Shown: positions 5,986-62,061 of the stretch, one piece after another | Layout: every line of letters starts with the position of its first letter | Position numbering within the stretch: position 1 is the first letter of the stretch | Source of the DNA: an uncultured Lachnospiraceae bacterium | Lineage (GTDB): Bacteria > Bacillota > Clostridia > Lachnospirales > Lachnospiraceae | Assembly (NCBI GenBank): GCA_947570615.1 | Contig: CANOVJ010000017.1 | Span: 1 to 62,061, forward strand | Reading direction: 5' to 3' | Length of the DNA: 62,061 bases | Notes under the pieces: model-generated | Database searches by the model: none | What the model was told of the DNA's origin: nothing | What the model saw: the letters and a program-made list of their open reading frames with translations, nothing else | Translations under genes and position numbers: made by a program

Positions 5986-7233
5986 ATGAACAGCGAAATC
6001 AGAGACATTAACCTGGCCGAGTCAGGCGAGCGCAAAATCGAGTGGGTAAAGAGAAACTGCGACCTGCTGCGCACCCTGGAGGCCGAATTTGAGCAGTCAA
6101 AACCCTTTGCAGGAAAAAAGATCGCTCTTTCCGTACACCTTGAGGCCAAGACAGCCTACCTCTGCCTGGTGCTGAAGGCCGGCGGGGCGCAGATGTTCGT
6201 CACCGGCTCCAACCCCTTATCCACCCAGGATGACGTGGCGGCCGCACTGGTAAAGGCCGGGCTTGAGGTCCACGCCTGGTATGACTGCACCCCCCAGGAA
6301 TATGAGACCCACATTCGCCACGTGCTTGAGGCAGGCCCCAACATCATCATCGACGACGGCGGAGACCTGGTGAATATGATTCACACCAGTATGCCGGAGC
6401 TGATCCCCGCCATCATCGGCGGCTGTGAGGAGACCACTACCGGAATCATCCGTCTGGAGGCCATGAATAAGGCGGGCGAGCTGAAATTCCCCATGGTGAG
6501 AGTGAACAACGCCGACTGCAAGCATCTCTTCGACAACCGCTACGGCACCGGCCAGTCCGTATGGGACGGCATCAACCGTACCACCAACCTGATCGTAGCC
6601 GGAAAAATCGTAGTGGTCGCCGGCTATGGATGGTGCGGAAAGGGAACCGCCATGCGCGCCAAGGGCCTCGGAGCGAGAGTCATTGTGACGGAGATCGACC
6701 CCGTCAAGGCCATCGAGGCCGTGATGGATGGATTTGACGTGATGCCCATGAACGAGGCCGCACGGGTGGGCGACTTCTTTGTAACCGTCACCGGATGCGA
6801 CAGGGTCATCGACGAGGAAGATTTCGCCGTTATGAAGGACGGCGCAATCCTGTGCAACGCAGGCCACTTTGACTGCGAGATCGATATGGCCAGGCTTCGC
6901 GAGATCGCCCTGGAGACCAGAGAGCAGAGAAAGAACATCATGGGCTATAAGCTCCCTCAGGGACAGTGGATCTTCGTTCTGGCGGAAGGACGGCTTGTTA
7001 ATCTGGCGGCCGGTGACGGACATCCTGCAGAGATCATGGATATGAGCTTTGCCATCCAGGCTCTGTCCGCCAAATATCTGGTGGAGCACGGAAACGAGCT
7101 CTCCGAAAAGCTCATCGACGTGCCCGCGGTGGTAGATCAGGACGTGGCCAGAAGGAAGCTCGCCTTCCTCGGCAAGAAGATCGATTCTCTCACGCCGGAG
7201 CAGGAAAAGTATTTAAACAGCTATTCGCTGTAG
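5986..7233 (+). CDS. ahcY: S-adenosylhomocysteinase / S-inosylhomocysteine hydrolase-like
   Basis: A 415-residue NAD-dependent hydrolase cleaving S-adenosyl- (or S-inosyl-) homocysteine to homocysteine and a nucleoside. Seen: SVHLEAKTA (substrate-site His), TGSNPLSTQDDVAAAL, IDDGGDLVNMIH, the K/D pair in DCKHLFDNRYG, NAD motif GYGWCGKGTAMRAKGLGA, VTEIDPVKAIEA and NAGHFDCEID. The short form lacks the C-terminal K/Y tail of the eukaryotic and proteobacterial enzymes and resembles archaeal or Thermotoga-type members. AAAGGAG lies 10 bases before the ATG. Because a SAH-deaminase-like gene is translated immediately upstream, the true substrate may be S-inosylhomocysteine, as known for a methanogen pathway; that is inference. 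Confidence 0.92.
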   Translation: MNSEIRDINLAESGERKIEWVKRNCDLLRTLEAEFEQSKPFAGKKIALSVHLEAKTAYLCLVLKAGGAQMFVTGSNPLSTQDDVAAALVKAGLEVHAWYDCTPQEYETHIRHVLEAGPNIIIDDGGDLVNMIHTSMPELIPAIIGGCEETTTGIIRLEAMNKAGELKFPMVRVNNADCKHLFDNRYGTGQSVWDGINRTTNLIVAGKIVVVAGYGWCGKGTAMRAKGLGARVIVTEIDPVKAIEAVMDGFDVMPMNEAARVGDFFVTVTGCDRVIDEEDFAVMKDGAILCNAGHFDCEIDMARLREIALETREQRKNIMGYKLPQGQWIFVLAEGRLVNLAAGDGHPAEIMDMSFAIQALSAKYLVEHGNELSEKLIDVPAVVDQDVARRKLAFLGKKIDSLTPEQEKYLNSYSL

Positions 7234-7256
7234 AAACTAAAAGGAGGTACATTTCT

Positions 7257-7898
7257 ATGCAAGAAGCTATCAAGATCAGGTCCAAGTCACACCCCGATGT
7301 TGTGCTGCACACCATCCCGGGCCACTTTGTGACCCCCAACTCCCATGTTAATTATTTTCTGGACATGACCACCTTAAAGTCCAGGCTCAGCGAGGCTTCT
7401 GCGGCGGCCAGAGCCCTTGGGGAGCAAATCTCGGCGACCACCATCGTGGATACCATCGTCTGCATTGAGGGCTGTGAAATTATCGGCGCTCTGCTGGCCG
7501 AGGAGCTGACAAGAGCGGGGATCTATTCCATGAATTCCCACAAGACCATTTATATCGTGACTCCCGAGTACGCAAACTCAGGCCAGCTCATCGTCCGCGA
7601 AAACATGCTTCCCATGATCAGGGGCAAAAATGTACTTCTCCTGCTCGCCTCCGCCACCACCGGACAGACCATTGTAAAGGCAAGCCGCGCCCTCATTTAT
7701 TACGGGGCTAAAATCAGCGGGATCAGCGCTGTTTTCAGCGCCGCCAACAGCATCATGGGCATCCCCATCAAGTCCCTGTTTACCATCGCGGATATTCCCG
7801 ATTACAGGACCTATGAGGCGGAGGGCTGTTCACTGTGTAAGGCAAACAAACCCATCGATGCTTTTGCAAACGGATTTGGGTATTCCAAAATCGGCTGA
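7257..7898 (+). CDS. Phosphoribosyltransferase-like protein
   Basis: A 213-residue protein resembling the orotate/purine phosphoribosyltransferase superfamily in length and pattern: VDTIVCIEGCEIIGALLAEEL resembles the region before the PRPP loop, and LLLASATTGQTIVKASRALIYYGA sits where the D-D-x-x-T-T-G-x-T PRPP motif should be. The usual acidic pair in that motif is replaced (LLASATTGQT), which is odd and may mean weak or altered PRPP binding. Two cysteines near the C-terminus (CSLCKANKP) could bind metal. It starts 23 bp after the SAH hydrolase gene with AAAGGAGG, in the same operon, and is followed by a terminator. A role in salvaging the released base is plausible but unproven. Confidence 0.7.
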   Translation: MQEAIKIRSKSHPDVVLHTIPGHFVTPNSHVNYFLDMTTLKSRLSEASAAARALGEQISATTIVDTIVCIEGCEIIGALLAEELTRAGIYSMNSHKTIYIVTPEYANSGQLIVRENMLPMIRGKNVLLLLASATTGQTIVKASRALIYYGAKISGISAVFSAANSIMGIPIKSLFTIADIPDYRTYEAEGCSLCKANKPIDAFANGFGYSKIG

Positions 7899-15903: not shown

Positions 15904-17724
15904 ATGAAAAAGAAAGTAGTAAAAAGATTGCTGGCTTTATCCCTGGCAGGGGTTCTGGCAGTGGGCATGTTAGCCGGATGCGGCGGCAGCGACAGCGGCT
16001 CATCCTCCACAGACGGCGCAGAGGCGGCGGACTCGGCTGATTCATCCGACACGGGCTCTGCCGACGCGGCGGATACTTCCGGCGACACGGATGCGGCGGA
16101 TTCTGCGGACGGCGCCGGCGGGGAGAGCACCTTTATTGCAGACCGCACCATCACGGTACAGGCCTATGTGGACGATATCGGATATTATCTTCCCGATGAT
16201 CTTAACAACACCCCTGTGATGCAGAAAATCACCGAGCTCACAGGCATCAAGCTTGACATCAGATATACCCCCGGCGACAGCGACGCCAAGGTGCTGGCTT
16301 CCCAGCTGGCGGCTGGAACCATTCCGGACGTGATTGTCAGCTACCTTGACAACTCCACCAGACCGGAGTTTCCCATCCTTTTAAAGGCGGCAAAGGAAGG
16401 CATGTTTGCGGACGTATCTGAATATATGAAGAATTCCAAAGTATATTCCAGATATTACGAGGATGGGTTCCTGCCCAACGACGCTTATAAGAACATCTCC
16501 TTCCGTGACGACCTGGACGGCGTTTATCTGTGGCAGTTAAACATCGCGGCTGTCGATAACACGCTGGAATGGATACCGGAAGAAGAATATCTGGGCGGAT
16601 TATATATCCAGAAGGCGATCGCCGACGATCTTGGGATCGACGTCATGAACATCCGCACACAGGATGAATTCTATGATCTGCTGGTCAGCATTAAAGAGGG
16701 CGGATACAAGGATGACAACGGTAACGATGTATATCCCTTAGGACCCAAATTCTGGGGCGGCTCCATGGACAGTATCGACTACGTGGTTCCGGGCTTTAAG
16801 TGGGGCGTGAGCCAGGATTACAACATCGACGACGAGGGCCATGTAAGACACGAGGCCGAGATGGACACCATCTACGACGAGATCAATTACGTGAGGAAGC
16901 TCCTGAATGAAGGGCTGATGAATCCCGAGTTCTTTACCATGGATTCCACCCGCGCGGAGGAGGTATGCAAAAATAAAAACTCCGCAATCATCGCCGACGT
17001 ACACAATTACCAGGATATCATTTATATGAGCGACGACTGGGTTCCGTTAGGACCTCTGAACGATATCTCCGGAGATAACAAAGATGTTACCCACGGGAAA
17101 ACCGGACGCGGCTGTATGGCAATCTCCGCAGAGGCTGAAAATCCGGAAGAAATTTTCGCATTCTTTGACTGGCTCAGCACCGTGGAAGGACAGCTCATTG
17201 CCCAGTACGGCGTTGAGGGCGTCAGCTTCGACATGGTTGACGGCAAGCCCGTTCTCAAGGATGAAGTTCTCAAGGCCATCGATGAAAACAATACCGATTA
17301 TCTGATCAACGAGATCGGAGCTGCTTTCGGCGGCGTAGCCAACTATTTCTTTACCTTCTGTATTACAAACGTTGACAACATTAACAACTTTGGCGAATCC
17401 CGTCCGGGCGCATCGGCCGGCACGGCCTACTCCAGAAGTGTGGAGATCGCAACGGACTACGCGAGGGAAAAGAAGCTGGTTCCCGGACTTAACGCATCCG
17501 CTTATCTGTCCGCGGACGAATTATCTGCCGTAAAGACCCAGATGGATCTCCTCAACTGGGATGAAGTGCTGACACAGGCCTTCTTCGCCAAGACAGACGA
17601 CGAAGTAAAGAATATCATAGAATCCTTCCGTGCGCAGTTGAAGGCGGCGGGAATCGAACAGTTTGAGGAATACGTAGAGAATATTTATAAGGAAGATCCT
17701 GAAGCTGTTAATTTCTATCATTAA
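15904..17724 (+). CDS. Extracellular solute-binding lipoprotein, LplA-type
   Basis: A 606-residue substrate-capture protein. The N-terminus has a lysine-rich start, a hydrophobic core and the lipobox MLAGC at about residue 25, followed by a ~50-residue low-complexity Ser/Asp/Ala linker that would extend it from the membrane. The remainder is a family-1-type binding fold, with Trp- and Tyr-rich stretches such as KFWGGSMDSIDYVVPGFKW expected at a sugar site. GGAGG precedes the ATG. It is placed between the two permease genes rather than after them, and is followed by a strong stem-loop that may raise its mRNA level. Substrate is unknown. Confidence 0.9.
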   Translation: MKKKVVKRLLALSLAGVLAVGMLAGCGGSDSGSSSTDGAEAADSADSSDTGSADAADTSGDTDAADSADGAGGESTFIADRTITVQAYVDDIGYYLPDDLNNTPVMQKITELTGIKLDIRYTPGDSDAKVLASQLAAGTIPDVIVSYLDNSTRPEFPILLKAAKEGMFADVSEYMKNSKVYSRYYEDGFLPNDAYKNISFRDDLDGVYLWQLNIAAVDNTLEWIPEEEYLGGLYIQKAIADDLGIDVMNIRTQDEFYDLLVSIKEGGYKDDNGNDVYPLGPKFWGGSMDSIDYVVPGFKWGVSQDYNIDDEGHVRHEAEMDTIYDEINYVRKLLNEGLMNPEFFTMDSTRAEEVCKNKNSAIIADVHNYQDIIYMSDDWVPLGPLNDISGDNKDVTHGKTGRGCMAISAEAENPEEIFAFFDWLSTVEGQLIAQYGVEGVSFDMVDGKPVLKDEVLKAIDENNTDYLINEIGAAFGGVANYFFTFCITNVDNINNFGESRPGASAGTAYSRSVEIATDYAREKKLVPGLNASAYLSADELSAVKTQMDLLNWDEVLTQAFFAKTDDEVKNIIESFRAQLKAAGIEQFEEYVENIYKEDPEAVNFYH

Positions 17725-50955: not shown

Positions 50956-52146
50956 TCAGCTTACATAGTTGTCGAAGTAACCCTGAATCAGGATCACCGG
51001 GGTTCCCTTGTCGCCGGAGCCGCTGGTCAGGTCGCACAGAGAGCCGATCAGGTCGGTGAGCCTTCGGGGAGTGGTTCCCTGGGAGGCCATGTCGCCCACC
51101 AGATTATCCTTCTTTTCCCGGATGCGCTCTGAGATGGCTTCTCTGAGCGCTTCCCCGGAGAGATCCTTAAAATCGTTGTCCGCAAGGTATTTCAGCTTCA
51201 CCTCATTGGGCGTCCCCTCAAGGCCCGGGGTGCTGGCCGGGGATACGCAGGGGTCGGCAAGCTCCCAGATCTTTCCGATGGGATCCTTGAACGCGCCGTC
51301 GCCGTAAACCATGACCTCCACATGCTTTCCGGTTCTGACCAGGATTTCCTTCTGGATATCCATCACCAGACCGGTACATTCTCTGGGGAAGAGCTTGATG
51401 GTATCCTCCGTGGACTTGTTGGAGCCCAGAAGGCCGTAGCTCTCATTGCAGCCGCTTCCGTTTACAGGGCTGGTGAGGATATCGTCCATGCCCATCACCA
51501 CCTCTGCGCCTGCTGCCTTTAACAGCCTCTTCGTGCGCGCCCTGGTGTGGATATCGCAGTTTAACACCCTCTTCGCATAGGGGAGGATACTGCGGCAGTC
51601 GTTGGCAAAGATGATCTCCACCTCCGCGCCCGACTCTCTGATCAGGTCGCCGTAGTATTCCACATAGTCCACTCCCGTGAAGGGATGTCTGTTTTCACCA
51701 AAAAGCTCACGGTACCTTTCCAGTGTGAGGACGTCGCTGTAGGGATTCACTCCCGCCTCGTCAAGCTGATCCAGCGAAACCAGCGCGTTCCCCACCTCGT
51801 CGCTGGGGTAGCTGAGCATCAGGACCACCTTCCTGGCACCCATGGCAATCCCCCGCAGGCAGATCGCGAAACGGTTCCTTGACAGGATCGGGAAGATAAC
51901 TCCGATGGTCTCTCCCCCCAGCTTCGAGCGCACATCCTGGGCGATGGCTTCCACCGACGCGTAGTTCCCCTGGGATCTTGCAACCACGGATTCCGTCACC
52001 GCAATCACGTCCCTGTCGCGGATCTCGAACCCTTCCGCCTTTGCCGCCTCCAGCACGCTGTCAGTCACAATTTTTACCAGATCGTCGCCCTCCCTTATGA
52101 TCGGGCAGCGGATCCCTCTTGATATCGTTCCAACTTTTCTTTCCAT
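50956..52146 (-). CDS. CofE-like F420-0:gamma-glutamyl ligase family protein
   Basis: A 396-residue protein of the coenzyme F420-0:L-glutamate ligase superfamily. Visible family segments are DRDVIAVTESVVARSQGNY near residue 45, FPILSRNRFAICLRGIAMGA, a long middle region with NGSGCNESYGLLGSNKSTEDTIKLFPR and VYGDGAFKDPIGKIWELADP. Such proteins add glutamate to F420-0, but no other F420 gene is in the window and Lachnospiraceae are not known F420 producers, so it may ligate glutamate to another acceptor. The ATG at 52146 is 9 bases after GGGAG; the ATG at 52152 is only 3 away. Confidence 0.78.
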   Translation of the reverse strand: MERKVGTISRGIRCPIIREGDDLVKIVTDSVLEAAKAEGFEIRDRDVIAVTESVVARSQGNYASVEAIAQDVRSKLGGETIGVIFPILSRNRFAICLRGIAMGARKVVLMLSYPSDEVGNALVSLDQLDEAGVNPYSDVLTLERYRELFGENRHPFTGVDYVEYYGDLIRESGAEVEIIFANDCRSILPYAKRVLNCDIHTRARTKRLLKAAGAEVVMGMDDILTSPVNGSGCNESYGLLGSNKSTEDTIKLFPRECTGLVMDIQKEILVRTGKHVEVMVYGDGAFKDPIGKIWELADPCVSPASTPGLEGTPNEVKLKYLADNDFKDLSGEALREAISERIREKKDNLVGDMASQGTTPRRLTDLIGSLCDLTSGSGDKGTPVILIQGYFDNYVS

Positions 52147-52299
52147 ATCCATCTTCTCCCTTGGTAGATTTCAGATTCCGCCGGCATCCATATCAGCTAT
52201 CCCCAAAATCGCCGGGTTTATCCTTTCTTATTATAGTATAGTGAGGGAGAAAACAAAAGAATTATTTGAAAAAGTGTTATTACTGTAATCGCTTTTTGT

Positions 52300-55686: not shown

Positions 55687-58173
55687 CTAATCCGCATTCC
55701 CTGCCGTCACAGGCAACGCCAGCTCCTTTTCCTGTACACAGTTGGACAGGTATTGGAACCTCCCATCCTTCCCCGGACGGACAGTGATCTGGTTTGTGAA
55801 GGCGCAGTCGGAGTCATAATCGGGCCACACGCCGTCCACCATGAGGGTGACGGTTCCATCCTCATTCTCCTTATAGTCGACCACCTCCCCAAAGGGCGGA
55901 TAGGGATTTACATGAATCCTTTCAAAGGGATAGCCGTCTCTCCCCTCATCGTACCCGCAGCATTTTCTGAGCTGCTCCCGGGATACCGGGAAATAAGCCG
56001 TCATAATCTCCTCATAGACTCCGGCCGGAATCTGCCCGTCCTTCACCTTCAGATTCTCCCCTGTATCCATGTGGTAAATATCCTCAAACATACATGACGT
56101 CAGGATCTTTTCCACACTGTCGCTGTCCCAGTTGGTGACAAGCATGTTATAGTTTACATAGCTTAATCCGGATATGTATTTTCCGGTCAGCTCCCGGCAT
56201 TTATCCGAAAGAGGACTTACCCGCCAATACTGCCTCAGGCTGGTGTGGATGGTCTCCTCCGTATACCTGTAGAAAAAGTATCCCTTTTCTGTGAGCCGGA
56301 TCTCGGCCACGTCGCTTACGGAGGCTCCCTGTATCTCGGGAACGCCTCCTTCCCTCCATCGGATCCCTGTATAGTAGATCTGTATCCGTCCCTGCCTGAA
56401 AAGAAAGGTTACAGACCCGATCAGTCCGTCTTTGCTTATCTCAAATACTGTGACCATGGAATCCTCTCCCCGCAGATACGCCGCGTAGAAGGTTTCCATT
56501 TTCTCACAGTTCTGCATATTGGTATTCTCCTCCACGCTCACCAGATCATTTTTTCCCAGCTCCTCCACCACTGCCCTGCGCTGCCTGGCGCTAAACTCAC
56601 CGACCCCGGAGGAAAGATCCGGCATATCCCTTATCCCTGCCTCCTGATAGATGGCCCGGACGGACTCGGCGGCCGCCAGTGCCTCCTGCTGCAGACGACG
56701 TTTTTCCTCATCCGAAAACAGGCAGTCCGCGGCCTGTGTGAAATACCAGTATTCCGACTCCGCGGAGGTTATACCGGATGTATCCTGTCCGGATAGATCC
56801 GGCCCGGATACATGCTCTGCGTATATCTCTGTCCACTCCTCCCGGGTCAGCCGGGGCGTGTACCATGTGGGCTCACAGTTATTTTCCGAAGGTATGACAC
56901 GGTTTGAGACATATTCCACGCCGCCATTCTCCAGCGGGCGGACCACCACCTCGTGGGCGTATGCCCTGGAAAGATCTTCATGGGGAAACACCGCATGGAC
57001 CGTCAGCGTAATCGTTCTGTCCGCGTTTTCCACGGCTCCCACCACCTCCGGAAAAGGGTACTGCGGATACTCCGTCTCATAGAATCCCCTCGGACGGTAC
57101 TCATAGGCCTCCTTCCCGGGATCCCAGGTCGTCTTCGCCCGCAGCGTCTCCTTTTCAATGCAAAGACAGGTCATGAGCACGCCCTCGAACTCCTCCTCCG
57201 GGATCCTGTATACCGCGCCCCTGTTCAGATTGGTGTCCGCGGGATAAGGTACGTCCCGTCCATAAATACGCGGATAAAAAATGTCGTACAGATCATAAAA
57301 ATCCAGCGCTCCGAAGTCATCCTCGTTCCAGTCCGTGAGAAACATGTTATTCCGTCCATAGCCGATGGGCAGAATATATTTTCGGTTCAGCTCTCTGTAT
57401 TTTTCCTCCAGCGGCTGTATCCGCAGGGCCGTATGCTCCTCCGTCCCGCTCATGGAAAGCACGTACATCTCCTGCGAAAACCAGGTTCCCGAGAACATCA
57501 GATACCCGTCCCGGGAATGATTCCAGTAATCCGCCGGGTAATTTTCGGTAATTTCCCTCCGCAGCGTTCCCGCCTTATTCCCCTGCATTCCGCCCTCTGC
57601 GACGCCGCTTCCGTAAGCGGTCTGCGGCTGTGCGCTCATTTCGTACCGGTAACAGCTTCTGGTTACATCCACCCTCCCATTCTCTGTGTGCAGATCGTAT
57701 CGTACCAGGCTCTGCGGATCGCTCACCTCCAGGATCGCGATCTCCGCCTCCTGACCACTGTCCACCTTTTCACAGAACTGCCTGACCTGCGCGGCCTGAA
57801 CCATATCAATCTGATTCCCGCTGTCAACAGCAGCATATCCGCTTTCTCCAAGCCGGGTTATGAGCTCCCGCAGTCTCTCCAGGTCAGACTGCCCTGCGCC
57901 ATCCACCGCCCCGCTGTCACCGCCCGGCTTTTCATGAAAGGATGAGAAGATCTCTGCAATTTTTTTCATATCCTGATTTTCCAGGTCCTGCGCCTCGTCC
58001 GAATCCGCAAAAGCTTCCAAGGACGGCGGCCTCCGGTCACTGCCGCGAAACGCCGCGACGGATACGGCCATAACGGCGACCACCGCGCCCGCGGCCGTGA
58101 CCGCCATAACGATTGCCGCCGCATTCAGGAATCTGCGAGTTCTTCTTCGATTGTGTCTGTCTTTTCTTTTCAT
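55687..58173 (-). CDS. Membrane-anchored uncharacterised protein, 828 aa, two similar halves
   Basis: I recognise no family. A very basic N-terminus (MKRKDRHNRRRTRRF) and one helix (LNAAAIVMAVTAAGAVVAVMAVSVAAF) anchor an extracellular domain. Two similar halves are visible: LREITENYPADYW ... LEEKYRELNRKYILPIGYGRNNMFLTDW ... AYAHEVVVRPLENGGVEYVSN matches IHTSLRQYW ... LSDKCRELTGKYISGLSYVNYNMLVTNW ... AFTNQITVRPGKDGRFQYLSN. A third copy of the last module is the fragment at 61288-61500. It lies divergent from blaI, with BlaI-type TACA/TGTA sites in the shared upstream region, so it may belong to the same regulon. No AGGAGG is obvious; GGGAGG lies before the ATG. Confidence 0.82.
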   Translation of the reverse strand: MKRKDRHNRRRTRRFLNAAAIVMAVTAAGAVVAVMAVSVAAFRGSDRRPPSLEAFADSDEAQDLENQDMKKIAEIFSSFHEKPGGDSGAVDGAGQSDLERLRELITRLGESGYAAVDSGNQIDMVQAAQVRQFCEKVDSGQEAEIAILEVSDPQSLVRYDLHTENGRVDVTRSCYRYEMSAQPQTAYGSGVAEGGMQGNKAGTLRREITENYPADYWNHSRDGYLMFSGTWFSQEMYVLSMSGTEEHTALRIQPLEEKYRELNRKYILPIGYGRNNMFLTDWNEDDFGALDFYDLYDIFYPRIYGRDVPYPADTNLNRGAVYRIPEEEFEGVLMTCLCIEKETLRAKTTWDPGKEAYEYRPRGFYETEYPQYPFPEVVGAVENADRTITLTVHAVFPHEDLSRAYAHEVVVRPLENGGVEYVSNRVIPSENNCEPTWYTPRLTREEWTEIYAEHVSGPDLSGQDTSGITSAESEYWYFTQAADCLFSDEEKRRLQQEALAAAESVRAIYQEAGIRDMPDLSSGVGEFSARQRRAVVEELGKNDLVSVEENTNMQNCEKMETFYAAYLRGEDSMVTVFEISKDGLIGSVTFLFRQGRIQIYYTGIRWREGGVPEIQGASVSDVAEIRLTEKGYFFYRYTEETIHTSLRQYWRVSPLSDKCRELTGKYISGLSYVNYNMLVTNWDSDSVEKILTSCMFEDIYHMDTGENLKVKDGQIPAGVYEEIMTAYFPVSREQLRKCCGYDEGRDGYPFERIHVNPYPPFGEVVDYKENEDGTVTLMVDGVWPDYDSDCAFTNQITVRPGKDGRFQYLSNCVQEKELALPVTAGNAD

Positions 58174-58249
58174 GAAAGCCTCCCTTTTACCACTGCACGG
58201 AATCAGACCGGTTCAGAGATGTAACCTCGTGATCTGCTTTGCTCAAGCT

Positions 58250-58264
58250 CTTACTTATGTAATA
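58250..58264. promoter_or_regulatory. BlaI-type operator site C (upstream of the 828-aa gene)
   Basis: TTAC-TTA-TGTAA contains the TAC-N3-TGTA half-site pair of BlaI/MecI operators. It is 77 bp upstream of the minus-strand start at 58173. Confidence 0.5.
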
Positions 58265-58271
58265 TTTTAAT

Positions 58272-58290
58272 TATTACATTTGTAGGGTTT
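58272..58290. promoter_or_regulatory. BlaI-type operator site A
   Basis: ATTACATTTGTAGGGTTT resembles the BlaI/MecI operator pattern TACA-N-TGTA followed by GATTT. It lies upstream of the blaI -35 box. Confidence 0.55.
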
Positions 58291-58309
58291 AAAGTCAAGC
58301 AAATTATGT
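58273..58309 (+). repeat. Direct repeat, left copy
   Basis: The segment beginning ATTACATTTGTA and continuing TTTAAAGTCAAGCAAATTATGT recurs in the same orientation at 61560-61597 with a few changes. It contains operator site A. Confidence 0.75.
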
Positions 58310-58316
58310 CCGAAGA

Positions 58317-58345
58317 TTGACATTTCCGCATTTTCACATTATAAT
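58317..58345 (+). promoter_or_regulatory. Consensus promoter of blaI-blaR1
   Basis: TTGACA (58317-58322), a 17-bp spacer and TATAAT (58340-58345) are a perfect sigma-A promoter. Operator B lies immediately downstream. Confidence 0.88.
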
Positions 58346-58348
58346 GTA

Positions 58349-58367
58349 TATTACAATCGTAAGATTT
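58349..58367. promoter_or_regulatory. BlaI-type operator site B
   Basis: TATTACAATCGTAAGATTT closely resembles, from memory, the B. licheniformis BlaI operator TATTACATATGTAAGATTT. It covers the expected transcription start of blaI, so BlaI would repress its own operon. Confidence 0.75.
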
Positions 58368-58382
58368 AAGGGGGGATTGCGG

Positions 58383-58769
58383 ATGAAAACGTTGCCACAA
58401 ATTTCAGAAGCCGAATTTGAAGTGATGAAAGTCATATGGAAACACGCACCGATCAGCACCAATGAAATCACCGAAAAACTGACGCAGACTACAAAATGGA
58501 GTCCTAAGACAATACAGACCCTGATCAGGCGGCTTGTAACCAAAGGGGCGCTTTCCTATCAAAAGCAGAGCAGGGTTTTCGTCTACACGCCCCTGATAGA
58601 ACAAAAAGAGTACGTCGGACAGGAAAGCCATTCTTTTCTTGAACGGTATTATGACGGAGATATTACAGCAATGCTTTCTGCCTATATCAAAGATGACAAA
58701 CTCTCCGAATCAGAAATTGACACGCTCCGTTCCCTTCTCGCAAAGGGTTCAAAAGACAGGGGGAAATAA
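58383..58769 (+). CDS. blaI: BlaI/MecI-family repressor
   Basis: A 128-residue winged-helix repressor. ISEAEFEVMKVIWKHAPISTNEITEKL and WSPKTIQTLIRRLVTKGAL form the DNA-binding domain, and the C-terminal helices (SHSFLERYYDGDITAMLSAYIKDDKLSESEIDTL) the dimer domain cleaved on induction. AGGGGGG precedes the ATG at 58383; the frame opens at 58317 within the promoter. Its stop is one base before the blaR1 start. Consensus promoter and operator B show autoregulation. Base composition is clearly more AT-rich than upstream genes, suggesting horizontal acquisition. Confidence 0.95.
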   Translation: MKTLPQISEAEFEVMKVIWKHAPISTNEITEKLTQTTKWSPKTIQTLIRRLVTKGALSYQKQSRVFVYTPLIEQKEYVGQESHSFLERYYDGDITAMLSAYIKDDKLSESEIDTLRSLLAKGSKDRGK

Positions 58770-58770
58770 C

Positions 58771-60585
58771 ATGGCAAATTTTGGAATACGCTTTTTCCTA
58801 TGTAATATTTTTATTTGTATCATCATAGGTTTTCTTATTATCGTAAAACGGGCATTTAAAAATTATTTGACCAGCCGGATGCAGTTCAATTTATGGTTTT
58901 TGCTGCTTGGGATTCTTGCAGTCCCGTTTGTTCCCTTTCGTCCGGCTTCTTTTACACAAATTTTCACATTACTTGACGTATGGAAAAATGCGGTATCATC
59001 AAACAAGGGGACGATTACAGAAGGTGTCCTGAATCCAAATACGTCCGGCGCTGTAAATCAGATGAATGATTTTGCACTGTCTGTCAGCAGGGAAACGCCC
59101 TCCATTATTGGATTGATTTTGTGTGGTATATGGCTGGTTGGCATTCTGGCTATGACTTTATTAGTGATAAAATCAGTATCCCGGTTAAACGCCATAAAAA
59201 AGTCTGCGCTTCCCCTGCAGAACAAGGATGTCCGTATTTTATATCATAACTGTTTAAAGGAAATGAAAATAAAAAGAAATATTCCCGTTTACAGCACCGC
59301 CTTCCTGAAATCCCCCGTTATTGTGGGATTATTCAACCCCCGCATTTATCTTCCCATCCACCTCATATCGGATTTTAATGCAGCGGATATGCGGTATATG
59401 CTGTTGCACGAATTACAACATTACAGGCACAAAGACGCACTGGCAAGTTATCTTATGAACTTTTTCGGCGTACTCTACTGGTGTAACCCATGTGTCTGGT
59501 ATGCACTGAAAGAAATGCGGAATGAACGGGAGGTTGCCTGTGATACATCCGTCCTGAAATTACTTGATGAGTGCGATTATGAAGATTACGGGAATACTCT
59601 TATCAATTTTGCGGAGAAAGTTTCACTTACGCCTTTCCCCTTTGCTGCCGGGATCAGCGGAAACATGAAGCAGATGCAGCAAAGAATTGCTAATATCTCC
59701 TCTTATAAAAAACCTTCTGCTTTCAGAAAATTAAAGGGATTTACTGCATTTGTCACGATTGGCGTTATTCTTTCCGGACTTGCCCCAATGCTCTCCACCT
59801 ATGCCGCAGAGCAGAGCCGGTATCAGTGGAATATTCCCTCCGACAAGGTTTCCACGATTGACCTGTCTTCCTGGTTCAGTGGATATGAGGGCAGCTTTGT
59901 ACTATATGATTTAAACGGCGATACATGGAAGGTCTATGACATGGAGCAAGCCACTTTAAGGACAGCCCCAAATTCTACTTACAAAATCTATGATGCGCTG
60001 TTTGGACTGGAAGAAGGTGTGATTGCGCCAGATGATTCTTTCATGGCATGGGACGGAACAAATCACCCATTTGAAGCATGGAACGGAAATCAGGATTTAC
60101 TTTCTGCCATGCGTGCTTCCGTCAACTGGTATTTCGAGGAAATAGACCGGCAGATCGGCGGGGCTGCCATTCAGGATTATATCCGAAAAATCGGATATGG
60201 GAATGAAACTGTAAATGCGGATCTTTCCGCATACTGGATGCAGGGGGATCTGAAAATCTCCCCGGTAGAGCAGGTGGAGCTTTTAACGGCTCTCCATGAC
60301 AACCGTTTTGGCTTTTCCACGGAGAATATAAATACCGTAAAAAATTCGATCTGTTTATTTTCGTCAGGAAATTTTTCATCGGAAGGCAAAAATTTTTACG
60401 GAAAAACCGGAACCGGACGTGTAGACGGTCAGGATGTGAATGGCTGGTTTGTGGGCTATGTAGAATCCGCTGACAACACATACTTTTTTGCCGCCAACAT
60501 CCAGGCCGCAGAAAATGCCACAGGCAGTAAGGCAGCAGAAATCTCCCTCTCCATCCTGTCTCATATGGGTATATGGAAACAATAA
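58771..60585 (+). CDS. blaR1: BlaR1/MecR1 beta-lactam sensor-transducer
   Basis: A 604-residue membrane sensor. Helices lie near 8-26, 40-57, 110-134 and 322-341. The cytoplasmic M56 zinc protease has HELQH (213-217) and NEREVACD (251-258). The extracellular C-terminus is a penicillin-binding sensor with S402-T-Y-K405, S450-V-N and K545-T-G-T-G, all three active-site motifs intact. A beta-lactam acylates the serine, which activates the protease and removes BlaI. GACAGGGGGAAA precedes the ATG at 58771. It overlaps nothing but is one base from blaI. No beta-lactamase gene follows. Confidence 0.95.
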   Translation: MANFGIRFFLCNIFICIIIGFLIIVKRAFKNYLTSRMQFNLWFLLLGILAVPFVPFRPASFTQIFTLLDVWKNAVSSNKGTITEGVLNPNTSGAVNQMNDFALSVSRETPSIIGLILCGIWLVGILAMTLLVIKSVSRLNAIKKSALPLQNKDVRILYHNCLKEMKIKRNIPVYSTAFLKSPVIVGLFNPRIYLPIHLISDFNAADMRYMLLHELQHYRHKDALASYLMNFFGVLYWCNPCVWYALKEMRNEREVACDTSVLKLLDECDYEDYGNTLINFAEKVSLTPFPFAAGISGNMKQMQQRIANISSYKKPSAFRKLKGFTAFVTIGVILSGLAPMLSTYAAEQSRYQWNIPSDKVSTIDLSSWFSGYEGSFVLYDLNGDTWKVYDMEQATLRTAPNSTYKIYDALFGLEEGVIAPDDSFMAWDGTNHPFEAWNGNQDLLSAMRASVNWYFEEIDRQIGGAAIQDYIRKIGYGNETVNADLSAYWMQGDLKISPVEQVELLTALHDNRFGFSTENINTVKNSICLFSSGNFSSEGKNFYGKTGTGRVDGQDVNGWFVGYVESADNTYFFAANIQAAENATGSKAAEISLSILSHMGIWKQ

Positions 60586-60623
60586 CAATCTGATCCCGTG
60601 CCCTCGGGCACACAAGAATGCTC

Positions 60624-61271
60624 TCATTTAAGTTGTCCGGACAAAATGTACCCCATAAAACAGTTGTGCAAATCTTTATCTGTTAATTGCTTAATCTCTT
60701 TCTTACCATCAAAGTATAGAATAATCTGCTCATCGAACTGTTCATCTCCGAACAAAATAACTTCCACAGAGTCCTCATGCCATGTGACCTCCCATATACT
60801 ACTGTGTATACTTTTACCATCATCAAACAGTTCAAAGTCTGCTTTGGATATTCTGCTTTTGCCCTCATAAAGAACCAGCCTGCCGGAAGCCGAACCAAAA
60901 GGAAAATCAGCCTCTCCGACAGCCTGTAAAACAAGTTCATAAGTTCCATCCGGTGAAACTGACGTGTCTGTCTTTGTTATTTTGTAATCTGACACATAGA
61001 CTAAACTCCCCCAAAACACGGCAATTGTAATAAAGATCATCAAAATCGTGTGTCCAATATAACCAACGCAAAAATCGCTGTCTGCCCGGTCAGACTCCTG
61101 CCGGAAGACATATGGATCTGCTGAATCGCTTTCCATGTTGCGGACCATCTCTTTACAGGCATCTTCCCATTCCGGTACGATATACTGATTTTCCTCTTCC
61201 TCTCCGCAGGCACAAAACAAAGTAACACATAACAGCATATGAATCCGTAAATTGAATTTCTTCTCTGACAT
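60624..61271 (-). CDS. Membrane-associated hypothetical protein, 215 aa
   Basis: I recognise no firm family. The N-terminus MSEKKFNLRIHMLLCVTLFCACG could be a lipoprotein-type signal (lipobox FCAC, atypical at -3), and a second helix GHTILMIFITIAVFWGSLVYV lies near residue 75. After it comes a strand-rich domain beginning TSVSPDGTYELVLQAVG and including WEVTWHEDSVEVILFGDE, a style seen in small Firmicute membrane proteins that follow an S-P-D-G-x-Y motif. GGAGGGG precedes the ATG at 61271. It lies 16 bp after the 70-residue ORF and behind two BlaI-type operators, so it is a candidate target of BlaI. Confidence 0.7.
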   Translation of the reverse strand: MSEKKFNLRIHMLLCVTLFCACGEEEENQYIVPEWEDACKEMVRNMESDSADPYVFRQESDRADSDFCVGYIGHTILMIFITIAVFWGSLVYVSDYKITKTDTSVSPDGTYELVLQAVGEADFPFGSASGRLVLYEGKSRISKADFELFDDGKSIHSSIWEVTWHEDSVEVILFGDEQFDEQIILYFDGKKEIKQLTDKDLHNCFMGYILSGQLK

Positions 61272-61287
61272 CCCAGGGCCCCTCCTT

Positions 61288-61500
61288 TCATTTTCCTGTT
61301 TGTGACAGTTCCAGTTCCTTTTGTTCAACCGTATCAGACAGATACCGGAATGGCCCATCCGGGAATAGCCGGACTACAATCTGATTTGTAAAAGCATAAT
61401 CCGGGCGGAAACTGTCTTGACCCATATATTTCAGCAAAACTTCTTCCGGTGTCGTCCCGTTCTGTCTTTTTCCTAAGTACCTATAAGATTTCATTTTCAT
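61288..61500 (-). pseudogene. Truncated paralogue of the 828-aa protein C-terminus
   Basis: A 70-codon frame whose second half, DYAFTNQIVVRLFPDGPFRYL followed by SDTVEQKELEL, matches the end of the 828-residue protein (CAFTNQITVRPGKDGRFQYL, then SNCVQEKELAL). The first ~35 residues have no counterpart there. No signal or anchor is present. It looks like a remnant of a larger gene truncated at its 5-prime side, now lying directly behind operators D and E. Whether the short product is made is unclear. Confidence 0.65.
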
Positions 61501-61531
61501 TTATTCTTTTCTTATCTCCATTGTTTCTAAT

Positions 61532-61547
61532 TCTTACGTTGGTAAGA
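61532..61547. promoter_or_regulatory. BlaI-type operator site D
   Basis: TCTTAC-GTTG-GTAAGA is a perfect 6-4-6 dyad of the same family as site B, followed by TTTA. It lies 32 bp upstream of the minus-strand ORF at 61500. Confidence 0.55.
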
Positions 61548-61558
61548 TTTATTTTAAA

Positions 61559-61577
61559 CATTACAACAGTAAGATTT
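61559..61577. promoter_or_regulatory. BlaI-type operator site E
   Basis: CATTACAACAGTAAGATTT shares TTACA-N3-GTAAGATTT with site B. It is in the same orientation as sites A and B and lies in the right copy of the direct repeat. Confidence 0.6.
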
Positions 61578-61597
61578 AAAAGTCAAGTAGATTATGT
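61560..61597 (+). repeat. Direct repeat, right copy
   Basis: ATTACAACAGTAAGATTTAA followed by AAGTCAAGTAGATTATGT matches the left copy at 58273-58309 over its whole length with scattered changes and a one-base difference in length. The two copies bracket blaI-blaR1 and the two small minus-strand frames. Confidence 0.75.
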
Positions 61598-61702
61598 ACT
61601 GCTTATGATAATCTCCCCACTTTCATAATCAATAGTTGATTCCATCTCTTTTTTGACTGTACGCAGAACATACCGACTATCCTCTTTTTATCATAACCCT
61701 GA

Positions 61703-61876: not shown

Positions 61877-62061
61877 GAATACAATACGGAGCCGCCCAGA
61901 AGCGCACAGAAGCCAGACCGGGATGATAAACCCTTCCCGGTAATTCTCGGTCTGAAACGGGCTTTAAACGCAAAAAAACAGGAGTGCCGAAGCACCCCCA
62001 TTCCCTAAACTGTAGGTTTGTCAAACATTTGTTACATTGATGAAAGATAGTCGTCCAGCAC
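61877..62061 (+). other. Terminal non-coding stretch
   Basis: No supportable gene is seen. There is a short imperfect hairpin (GGAGTGC/GCACCCC) near 61981-61998 after a run of seven A residues. The minus-strand 68-codon frame across 61818-62024 overlaps the MobC remnant and has no ribosome site or recognisable domain. Confidence 0.4.

Follow-up and report, generated by a model that had tools for sequence, protein, structure and literature searches.

The known mechanism of the sensor BlaR1 and the repressor BlaI is induction by beta-lactams (PMC9834060, PMC3305447). In the blaP/blaZ-blaI-blaR1 systems of Bacillus licheniformis and Staphylococcus aureus, three operators are placed between divergent operons (PMC3305447), and mecA-mecR1-mecI of the staphylococci is a divergon for the penicillin-binding protein (PBP) PBP2a. 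BlaI regulons without a lactamase have already been described for Clostridium thermocellum (PMC8457756), so the principle of a lactamase-less BlaI regulon is not new. The locus considered here lies near the right-hand end of a 62,061-bp contig, C17 (CANOVJ010000017.1), of an uncultured Lachnospiraceae bacterium. The entire contig was analyzed and is referred to as the window; its end at position 62061 is the limit of the visible sequence. The locus carries blaI and blaR1, and BlaI-type operators face the gene for a membrane-anchored protein with DUF6070 domains (PF19546), a family for which Pfam lists no function. We consider it probable (roughly 70%) that this is a Lachnospiraceae BlaR1/BlaI beta-lactam response in which three promoters are freed and the output is one or more DUF6070 surface proteins.

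The locus resembles the blaP/blaZ divergon in having a repressor, a sensor-protease, and operators at promoters, but no lactamase was found at the window locus, and there are five operators in two regions. With mecA-mecR1-mecI it shares the BlaR1/MecR1-BlaI/MecI type of pair, and related loci encode a protein with MecA_N, PBP_dimer, and transpeptidase domains under BlaI-type operators. Unlike the staphylococcal system, however, most of these relatives are convergent rather than divergent, DUF6070 genes are in the operon, the PBP is nearer to PBP4(5) by score, and the window itself is without an intact PBP. In the related locus L022, for example, the three-domain PBP scored 600 bits against the PBP4(5) model NF051842 (curated cutoff, 700) and 445 bits against PBP2a (cutoff, 750). 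The relatives' transpeptidase is thus like enterococcal PBP4(5) (solved PBP4/PBP5, e.g., 6bsq and 6mka) in sequence and domains, but it falls below the curated cutoff and is encoded beside blaI/blaR1. Small BlaI regulons of a clostridium are similar in that hypothetical or wall-synthesis genes are among the outputs and operators are paired, whereas their motif is GTCTAT/GACTAT and DUF6070 is not named in the accessible part of that source. Blautia producta carries blaI/blaR1 and is described as not ampicillin-resistant. A literature search on the term DUF6070 gave no match, and nothing on such a PBP-DUF6070 operon in Lachnospiraceae was found at the level of titles and the beginnings of abstracts. 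As far as these searches show, neither an output from the DUF6070 family nor a mec-like PBP-DUF6070 operon in Lachnospiraceae has been described before.

An intact BlaR1/BlaI pair with predicted operators at three promoters

The repressor gene blaI (58383 to 58769, plus strand, with its ATG at 58383) encodes 128 amino acids (aa) matching PF03965 (5.4e-36). The top solved relative of the repressor, at 105.8 bits, was 1p6r ('Penicillinase repressor'), which we take to be the B. licheniformis protein; BlaI could also be aligned to MecI, and in the alignments the cleavage-site residues are Ala-Tyr in place of Asn-Phe. The adjoining gene, blaR1 (58771 to 60585, plus strand), encodes a 604-aa M56 metalloprotease and penicillin sensor that scored 653.8 bits against NF000326 (cutoff, 400) and aligned over near full length with the solved BlaR1 structures 8exs and 8exp. 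Its translation contains HELQH, STYK, SVN, and KTGTG, and among 28 relatives HE..H and SVN were present in all 28, STYK in 27, and KTGTG in 26. Both a BlaI-type repressor and an M56 HExxH protease with a class-D-like sensor are therefore found in the window. An earlier interpretation made from the letters of the window (the sequence-only reading) had taken both genes to be intact, and the family models, the alignments with solved relatives, and the protease and sensor motifs all bear this out. The source genome (4.05 Mb in 112 contigs, 94.8% completeness) has seven BlaI-type places and seven M56 places; of the M56 places, only that of blaR1 also has a penicillin-binding (PF00905) domain.

Five BlaI-type operators of the form TTACnnnnGTAA were predicted. 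The blaI promoter (TTGACA-17-TATAAT, 58317 to 58345, plus strand) matches the consensus at 12 of 12 positions, and operator C (58351 to 58362, plus strand; exact TTACAATCGTAA) lies directly past its -10. On the other strand is the putative leftward promoter of the DUF6070 gene (TTGACT-17-AATAAT, 58270 to 58298, minus strand; 10 of 12, with TG ahead of the -10). Operator B (58274 to 58285, minus strand; TTACATTTGTAG, with one mismatch, GTAG) covers its spacer and -10, and operator A (58251 to 58262, minus strand; exact TTACTTATGTAA), which is kept in the window and eight aligned relatives, is 3' of that -10. The third promoter (TTGACT-17-TAATGT, 61558 to 61586, minus strand), which was read by eye and is absent from the promoter scan list, points leftward into a decayed operon. 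Operator E (61561 to 61572, minus strand; exact TTACAACAGTAA) covers its spacer and -10, operator D (61534 to 61545, minus strand; exact TTACGTTGGTAA) lies just past the -10, and its -35, TTGACT, showed no variation across 12 aligned sequences. The A/B and D/E regions share this layout of a leftward TTGACT promoter with one site over the -10 and the other just past it. The sequence-only reading had named a consensus promoter with an operator and four further sites, two of them upstream of a minus-strand gene pair and one or two upstream of the DUF6070 gene; these correspond to C, D plus E, and A plus B, respectively.

Allowing up to one mismatch, TTACNNNNGTAANATTT occurred seven times in the window, where 0.15 matches were expected, and none of 100 shuffles gave as many. 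Exact matches in the genome at its 94.8% completeness numbered four, and all four (A, C, D, and E) are at this locus. With one mismatch there were 43 matches (7 in the window) compared to 30 for a control pattern; this is little excess genome-wide, and a wider regulon is thus not visible. By sequence match, palindromic operators are predicted at the promoters of both the regulatory pair and its putative target.

A DUF6070 gene as the only intact putative output seen besides blaI-blaR1

The gene facing operators A and B (55687 to 58173, minus strand) encodes an 828-aa protein with two copies of DUF6070 (609 bits against PF19546; cutoff, 27) behind an N-terminal hydrophobic stretch, as seen from the translation. 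It is the sole DUF6070 gene found in its genome, and its G+C content (55%; 0.66 at third codon positions) matches the rest of the window. In comparison, blaI, blaR1, and the minus-strand frames to the right of them have a G+C content of 42 to 44% versus 0.535 for positions 1 to 55686. They are part of a low-G+C block (58243 to 61633) that begins a little to the left of operator A, is homologous piecewise to the loci of relatives, and was probably imported. In a comparison with eight loci, DNA homology to L022, L023, L024, L030, and L035 began at 58243, and that to L022 stopped at 61633. Since homology starts at 58243, the block directly adjoins a DUF6070 gene whose composition is native, and the leftward promoter of the block is aimed into that gene.

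The sequence-only reading had proposed the minus-strand pair, a 70-codon frame and a 215-residue membrane protein, as additional outputs. This part of its proposal was revised, as both look like fused deletion remnants of an operon. In relatives, this operon begins with a gene for a PBP2a/PBP4(5)-like transpeptidase, which is followed by DUF6070, p229, and C3 genes. The 70-codon frame (61288 to 61500, minus strand) combines a PBP-leader-like start with a DUF6070 C-terminal end (DUF6070 377 to 411), and positions 61421 to 61473 correspond to 16804 to 16856 of L022, within the PBP gene. The other frame (60624 to 61358, minus strand; 244 or 215 aa) combines the start of p229 with an end from the first half of C3. 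Positions 61036 to 61403 (DUF6070 end and p229 start) correspond to L022 12062 to 12429, and positions 60677 to 61037 (first half of C3) to L022 10497 to 10857. The promoter region (61498 to 61633) matches L022 as well, and the L022 pieces are ordered right to left, also at the protein level. The PBP body and the DUF6070 bodies present in L022 are missing on the D/E side of the window, no MecA_N match was found in the genome, and no MecA_N-type PBP lies under the operators. Because the minus-strand frames look like remnants, the 828-aa DUF6070 protein is the only intact putative output seen besides blaIR1. At positions 61985 to 62061, a hairpin with a run of T's after it was noted by eye, along with the final codons of a minus-strand gene that the contig end truncates.

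Conservation of the operators and of DUF6070 in related loci

A scan of GTDB genomes yielded 33 BlaR1 loci, in Lachnospiraceae or other Clostridia where named, and stretches were added from Lachnospiraceae genomes sampled one per genus and from the genus of the window, which takes in Parablautia muri, judging from the sequence that a stretch of genome G218 shares with the P. muri locus L025. Two of the related loci come from culturable strains, L025 from P. muri D42-62 and L035 from Acetatifactor muris DSM 23669. In total, 61 loci with a blaI/blaR1 match were counted; some are truncated at contig ends, so that a gene not seen is not always absent. L102, L104, L105, and L106, which are on contigs shared with L030, L025, L027, and L042, were excluded before counting, and L150 to L155 were mapped and left out of the counts. 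At least one intact DUF6070 gene was present in 43 of the 61 loci and a class D gene in 3, while an intact PBP was nearby in 22 and a PBP remnant in 9 (including L137, where the truncation is due to a contig end). Seven loci had neither PBP nor DUF6070, and two of these had a class D gene. All 76 aligned DUF6070 members matched PF19546, and STFK, SDN, and KTGT were found in each of six PBPs of relatives that were checked. In the window's genus, 12 of 37 genomes, its own included, had a DUF6070 match (E up to 1e-30); outside its own genome, none of the segments listed was more than 63% identical to the 828-aa protein.

Effector runs within 12 kb of blaI/blaR1 and clear of contig ends were inspected for operators in the 350 bp upstream, after eight runs at contig ends had been excluded. 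An operator preceded 47 of 49 runs (2 of the 49 being the window's own, the source of the motif), and 36 had at least two, compared to 1 of 49 for the reversed motif and 6.5% for random positions. The two runs without an operator were in L044, where DUF6070 is a remnant, and L052, where the class D gene is some kilobases off. Likewise, an operator was found no more than 200 bp from the start of blaI in 50 of 57 genes (control, 2), and 8 of 18 runs distant from blaI/blaR1 had one (control, 1). In L114 a class D gene is under an operator, and in L043 a class D gene is last in a run whose operators precede DUF6070. The placement of BlaI-type operators ahead of genes for non-lactamase envelope proteins is conserved among these loci, so this part of the sequence-only reading stands. 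BlaI-type operators were also seen ahead of unrelated small frames without a family above cutoff (L039 17567 and L048 13675), possible extra regulon members. In L022, two similar 144-aa frames (7002 to 7436 and 17229 to 17663), each limited to the DNA-binding portion of an OmpR-type response regulator, bracket the cassette, and the left one sits under an A-type operator.

At the sequence level there is good support for control of DUF6070 by BlaI, both in the window and in relatives. Very probably, then, BlaR1/BlaI controls DUF6070 as an output, which in some cases belongs to a mec-like operon and often has no intact PBP or lactamase beside it. Induction of DUF6070 by beta-lactams would follow from the known BlaR1/BlaI mechanism (PMC9834060, PMC3305447). 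In the proposed sequence of events, a beta-lactam would acylate BlaR1, the M56 protease of which would inactivate BlaI; loss of BlaI would then free the promoters of blaIR1 (operator C), of the 828-aa DUF6070 gene (A and B), and of the decayed operon (D and E). In relatives, the D/E-type promoter would drive DUF6070 genes, in some of them behind a PBP2a/PBP4(5)-like transpeptidase. This transpeptidase is the commonest recognizable effector beside DUF6070 and survives as a leader-like remnant here, which points to a mec-like lineage, and the locus probably descends from, or overlaps with, a mec-like target-replacement operon. In the window the transpeptidase would have been cut down to its leader remnant, and the A/B promoter of the low-G+C block would stand before a DUF6070 gene whose composition is native. 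We infer BlaI binding at the sites, induction by beta-lactams, and protection of the wall by DUF6070. For the last step we would suggest, with little commitment, that DUF6070 is a membrane-tethered, nonenzymatic protein that limits wall damage during PBP block by restraining wall hydrolases or by supporting the remaining synthases. This links an uncharacterized family with the best-known pathway of beta-lactam sensing and so assigns it a role that can be tested. In addition, the 22 of 61 loci with an intact PBP near blaI/blaR1 suggest that Lachnospiraceae have a mec-like PBP operon, which is probably inducible. If DUF6070 did protect alone, a penicillin response of commensals would be missed by screens for lactamases and PBPs.

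Intact DUF6070 in loci where the PBP appears to be lost

Of 200 one-per-genus Lachnospiraceae genomes, 36 had DUF6070, 35 had a BlaR1 relative (E up to 1e-60), and 38 had MecA_N. DUF6070 and BlaR1 occurred together in 26 of the 36 genomes with DUF6070 (Fisher p, 3.5e-17). DUF6070 was no more than 10 kb from BlaR1 in 18 of 36 genomes, as counted over 38 of the DUF6070 places with every genome represented. For the PBP, the same distance to BlaR1 was found in 15 of 38, and in 9 the three genes were mutually adjacent. Weighing against DUF6070 as a BlaR1/BlaI output are 10 genomes with DUF6070 and no such BlaR1 and 9 with BlaR1 and no DUF6070, some genomes being incomplete.

One alternative that we regard as possible, though clearly less probable than a DUF6070 output in its own right, is that DUF6070 merely helps the cotranscribed PBP, through folding, membrane placement, or as a partner, and that the locus in the window is a decaying resistance operon without benefit. 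Intact DUF6070 is present in 16 of the 22 loci with an intact PBP near blaI/blaR1, and the lack of MecA_N together with the two gene remnants fits decay. However, in 27 of the 61 loci, a few of them cut by contig ends, intact DUF6070 was seen with no intact PBP beside it, and the 828-aa gene is open and of native composition. In a BlaR1 tree of 53 rows, the 17-row clade containing the window had intact DUF6070 in 14 loci (the other three being L024 and L026, each truncated by a contig end, and L044) and an intact PBP in only 2 (L022 and L023). The tree was of a quick kind with long branches, and its change counts (PBP, 9; DUF6070, 7) are not read as gains or losses. The PBP remnants of the clade retain differing parts of the gene, which suggests several separate losses, and the DUF6070 frames of L031 and L035 open, by eye, with a stretch resembling the L022 PBP leader. 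For two DUF6070 genes compared pairwise among five related loci, the ratio of nonsynonymous to synonymous substitution rates (dN/dS) was 0.15 to 0.24 and 0.04 to 0.27, and among L027, L030, and L033, all of which have a PBP remnant, it was 0.18 to 0.27. These values are compatible with purifying selection on DUF6070, although part of that history may predate loss of the PBP.

There are also signs of movement. BlaR1 was more similar to that of the window than was the housekeeping protein ProS (the single protein compared, for 17 of the 33 loci) in L022 (92 versus 79% identity), L023 (92 versus 64%), L024 (91 versus 79%), L029 (89 versus 80%), and L031 (86 versus 78%), and also in L028, L034, L035, and L039. 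The two were within 2 points of each other in L025, L027, L030, and L038, and BlaR1 was the less similar in L037, L041, L043, and L048. A 7-kb unit consisting of operator, PBP, DUF6070, DUF6070, blaR1, and blaI is 98.3 to 98.7% identical in four genera (L123 6950 to 13907, L133 6643 to 13601, L143 6666 to 14456, and, as a 4-kb part only, L134 33 to 4006). This identity, with flanks that mostly differ, suggests recent spread; lysozyme-like, CHAP, and integrase genes are near some copies, and the unit may have been carried by an integrative element. A plasmid origin was considered and rejected, since the best plasmid BlaR1, from Priestia, was only 42.6% identical, indicating no close source among the plasmids searched.

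Possible function of DUF6070 and possible alternative targets of BlaI

The sequence of DUF6070 gave no match below E 0.2 against solved structures, and its predicted fold is, weakly, cystatin/NTF2-like. A tentative proposal, less likely than not, is that DUF6070 represents a third kind of BlaR1/BlaI-induced effector, neither lactamase nor replacement PBP. As a surface protein that is tethered and cystatin/NTF2-like, it would keep the wall intact, perhaps by restraining wall hydrolases, and would outlast the PBP in decaying mec-like operons of gut Lachnospiraceae. That DUF6070 is a wall endopeptidase inhibitor like IseA (YoeB), conferring tolerance to beta-lactams rather than resistance, seems unlikely.

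To a similar degree, it is improbable that operators A and B serve another leftward gene and that the 828-aa gene is a bystander. Eight aligned relatives do have the A/B region left of blaI without DUF6070 on that side, the left gene being a response-regulator-like frame in L022, L023, L037, L038, and L039, and homology of the window to five relatives ends at the 58243 boundary. Nevertheless, the next leftward gene from this promoter in the window is the 828-aa frame, which starts 78 bp from operator A; the intervening stretch has no terminator-like site listed, and the family of its product is found under BlaI operators elsewhere.

The sequence-only reading had also stated that there is no beta-lactamase, and this holds for the 62-kb contig up to its end at 62061 as searched, the searches having covered neither class C nor metallo-lactamases. 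To the right of D/E, homology to the eight compared relatives reaches 61892 at most (L035), no further operator is listed, and the D/E promoter points leftward. In the genome as a whole the statement may not hold, as a class-D-like, lipoprotein-like gene is present on contig C20 (L091 1468 to 2439; 225.8 bits against blaCDD, cutoff 600, and 167.2 against the class D model, cutoff 250). Four weak PF13354 matches were considered as class A lactamases and rejected because they scored best, all below cutoff, against D,D-carboxypeptidase, PBP3, and VanY-D models. Searches of the window and the genome found no lactamase under the same operators. The least probable of the alternatives, that BlaI acts in trans on the C20 gene as its true target, with only a secondary part for the DUF6070 sites, has in its favor the similarity of that gene to class D enzymes and the class D genes near blaI/blaR1 in three loci, including those of L114 and L043, but C20 has no operator with up to one mismatch and no BlaI-type gene was found on it, and the only weak operator-like site near the gene (L108 8772) is past its 3' end.

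Two further observations lie outside the blaI-blaR1 locus. Positions 50956 to 52152 of the window encode an F420-0 gamma-glutamyl ligase family protein (PF01996, 191 bits), here in a Lachnospiraceae genome. The 17-mer TTATGATTGTAACATTT occurs on nine contigs of the same genome (C5, C10, C19, C34, C39, C62, C63, C72, and C81) and in seven of them sits 12 to 14 bases from the contig start, which points to a multicopy repeat that breaks the assembly.

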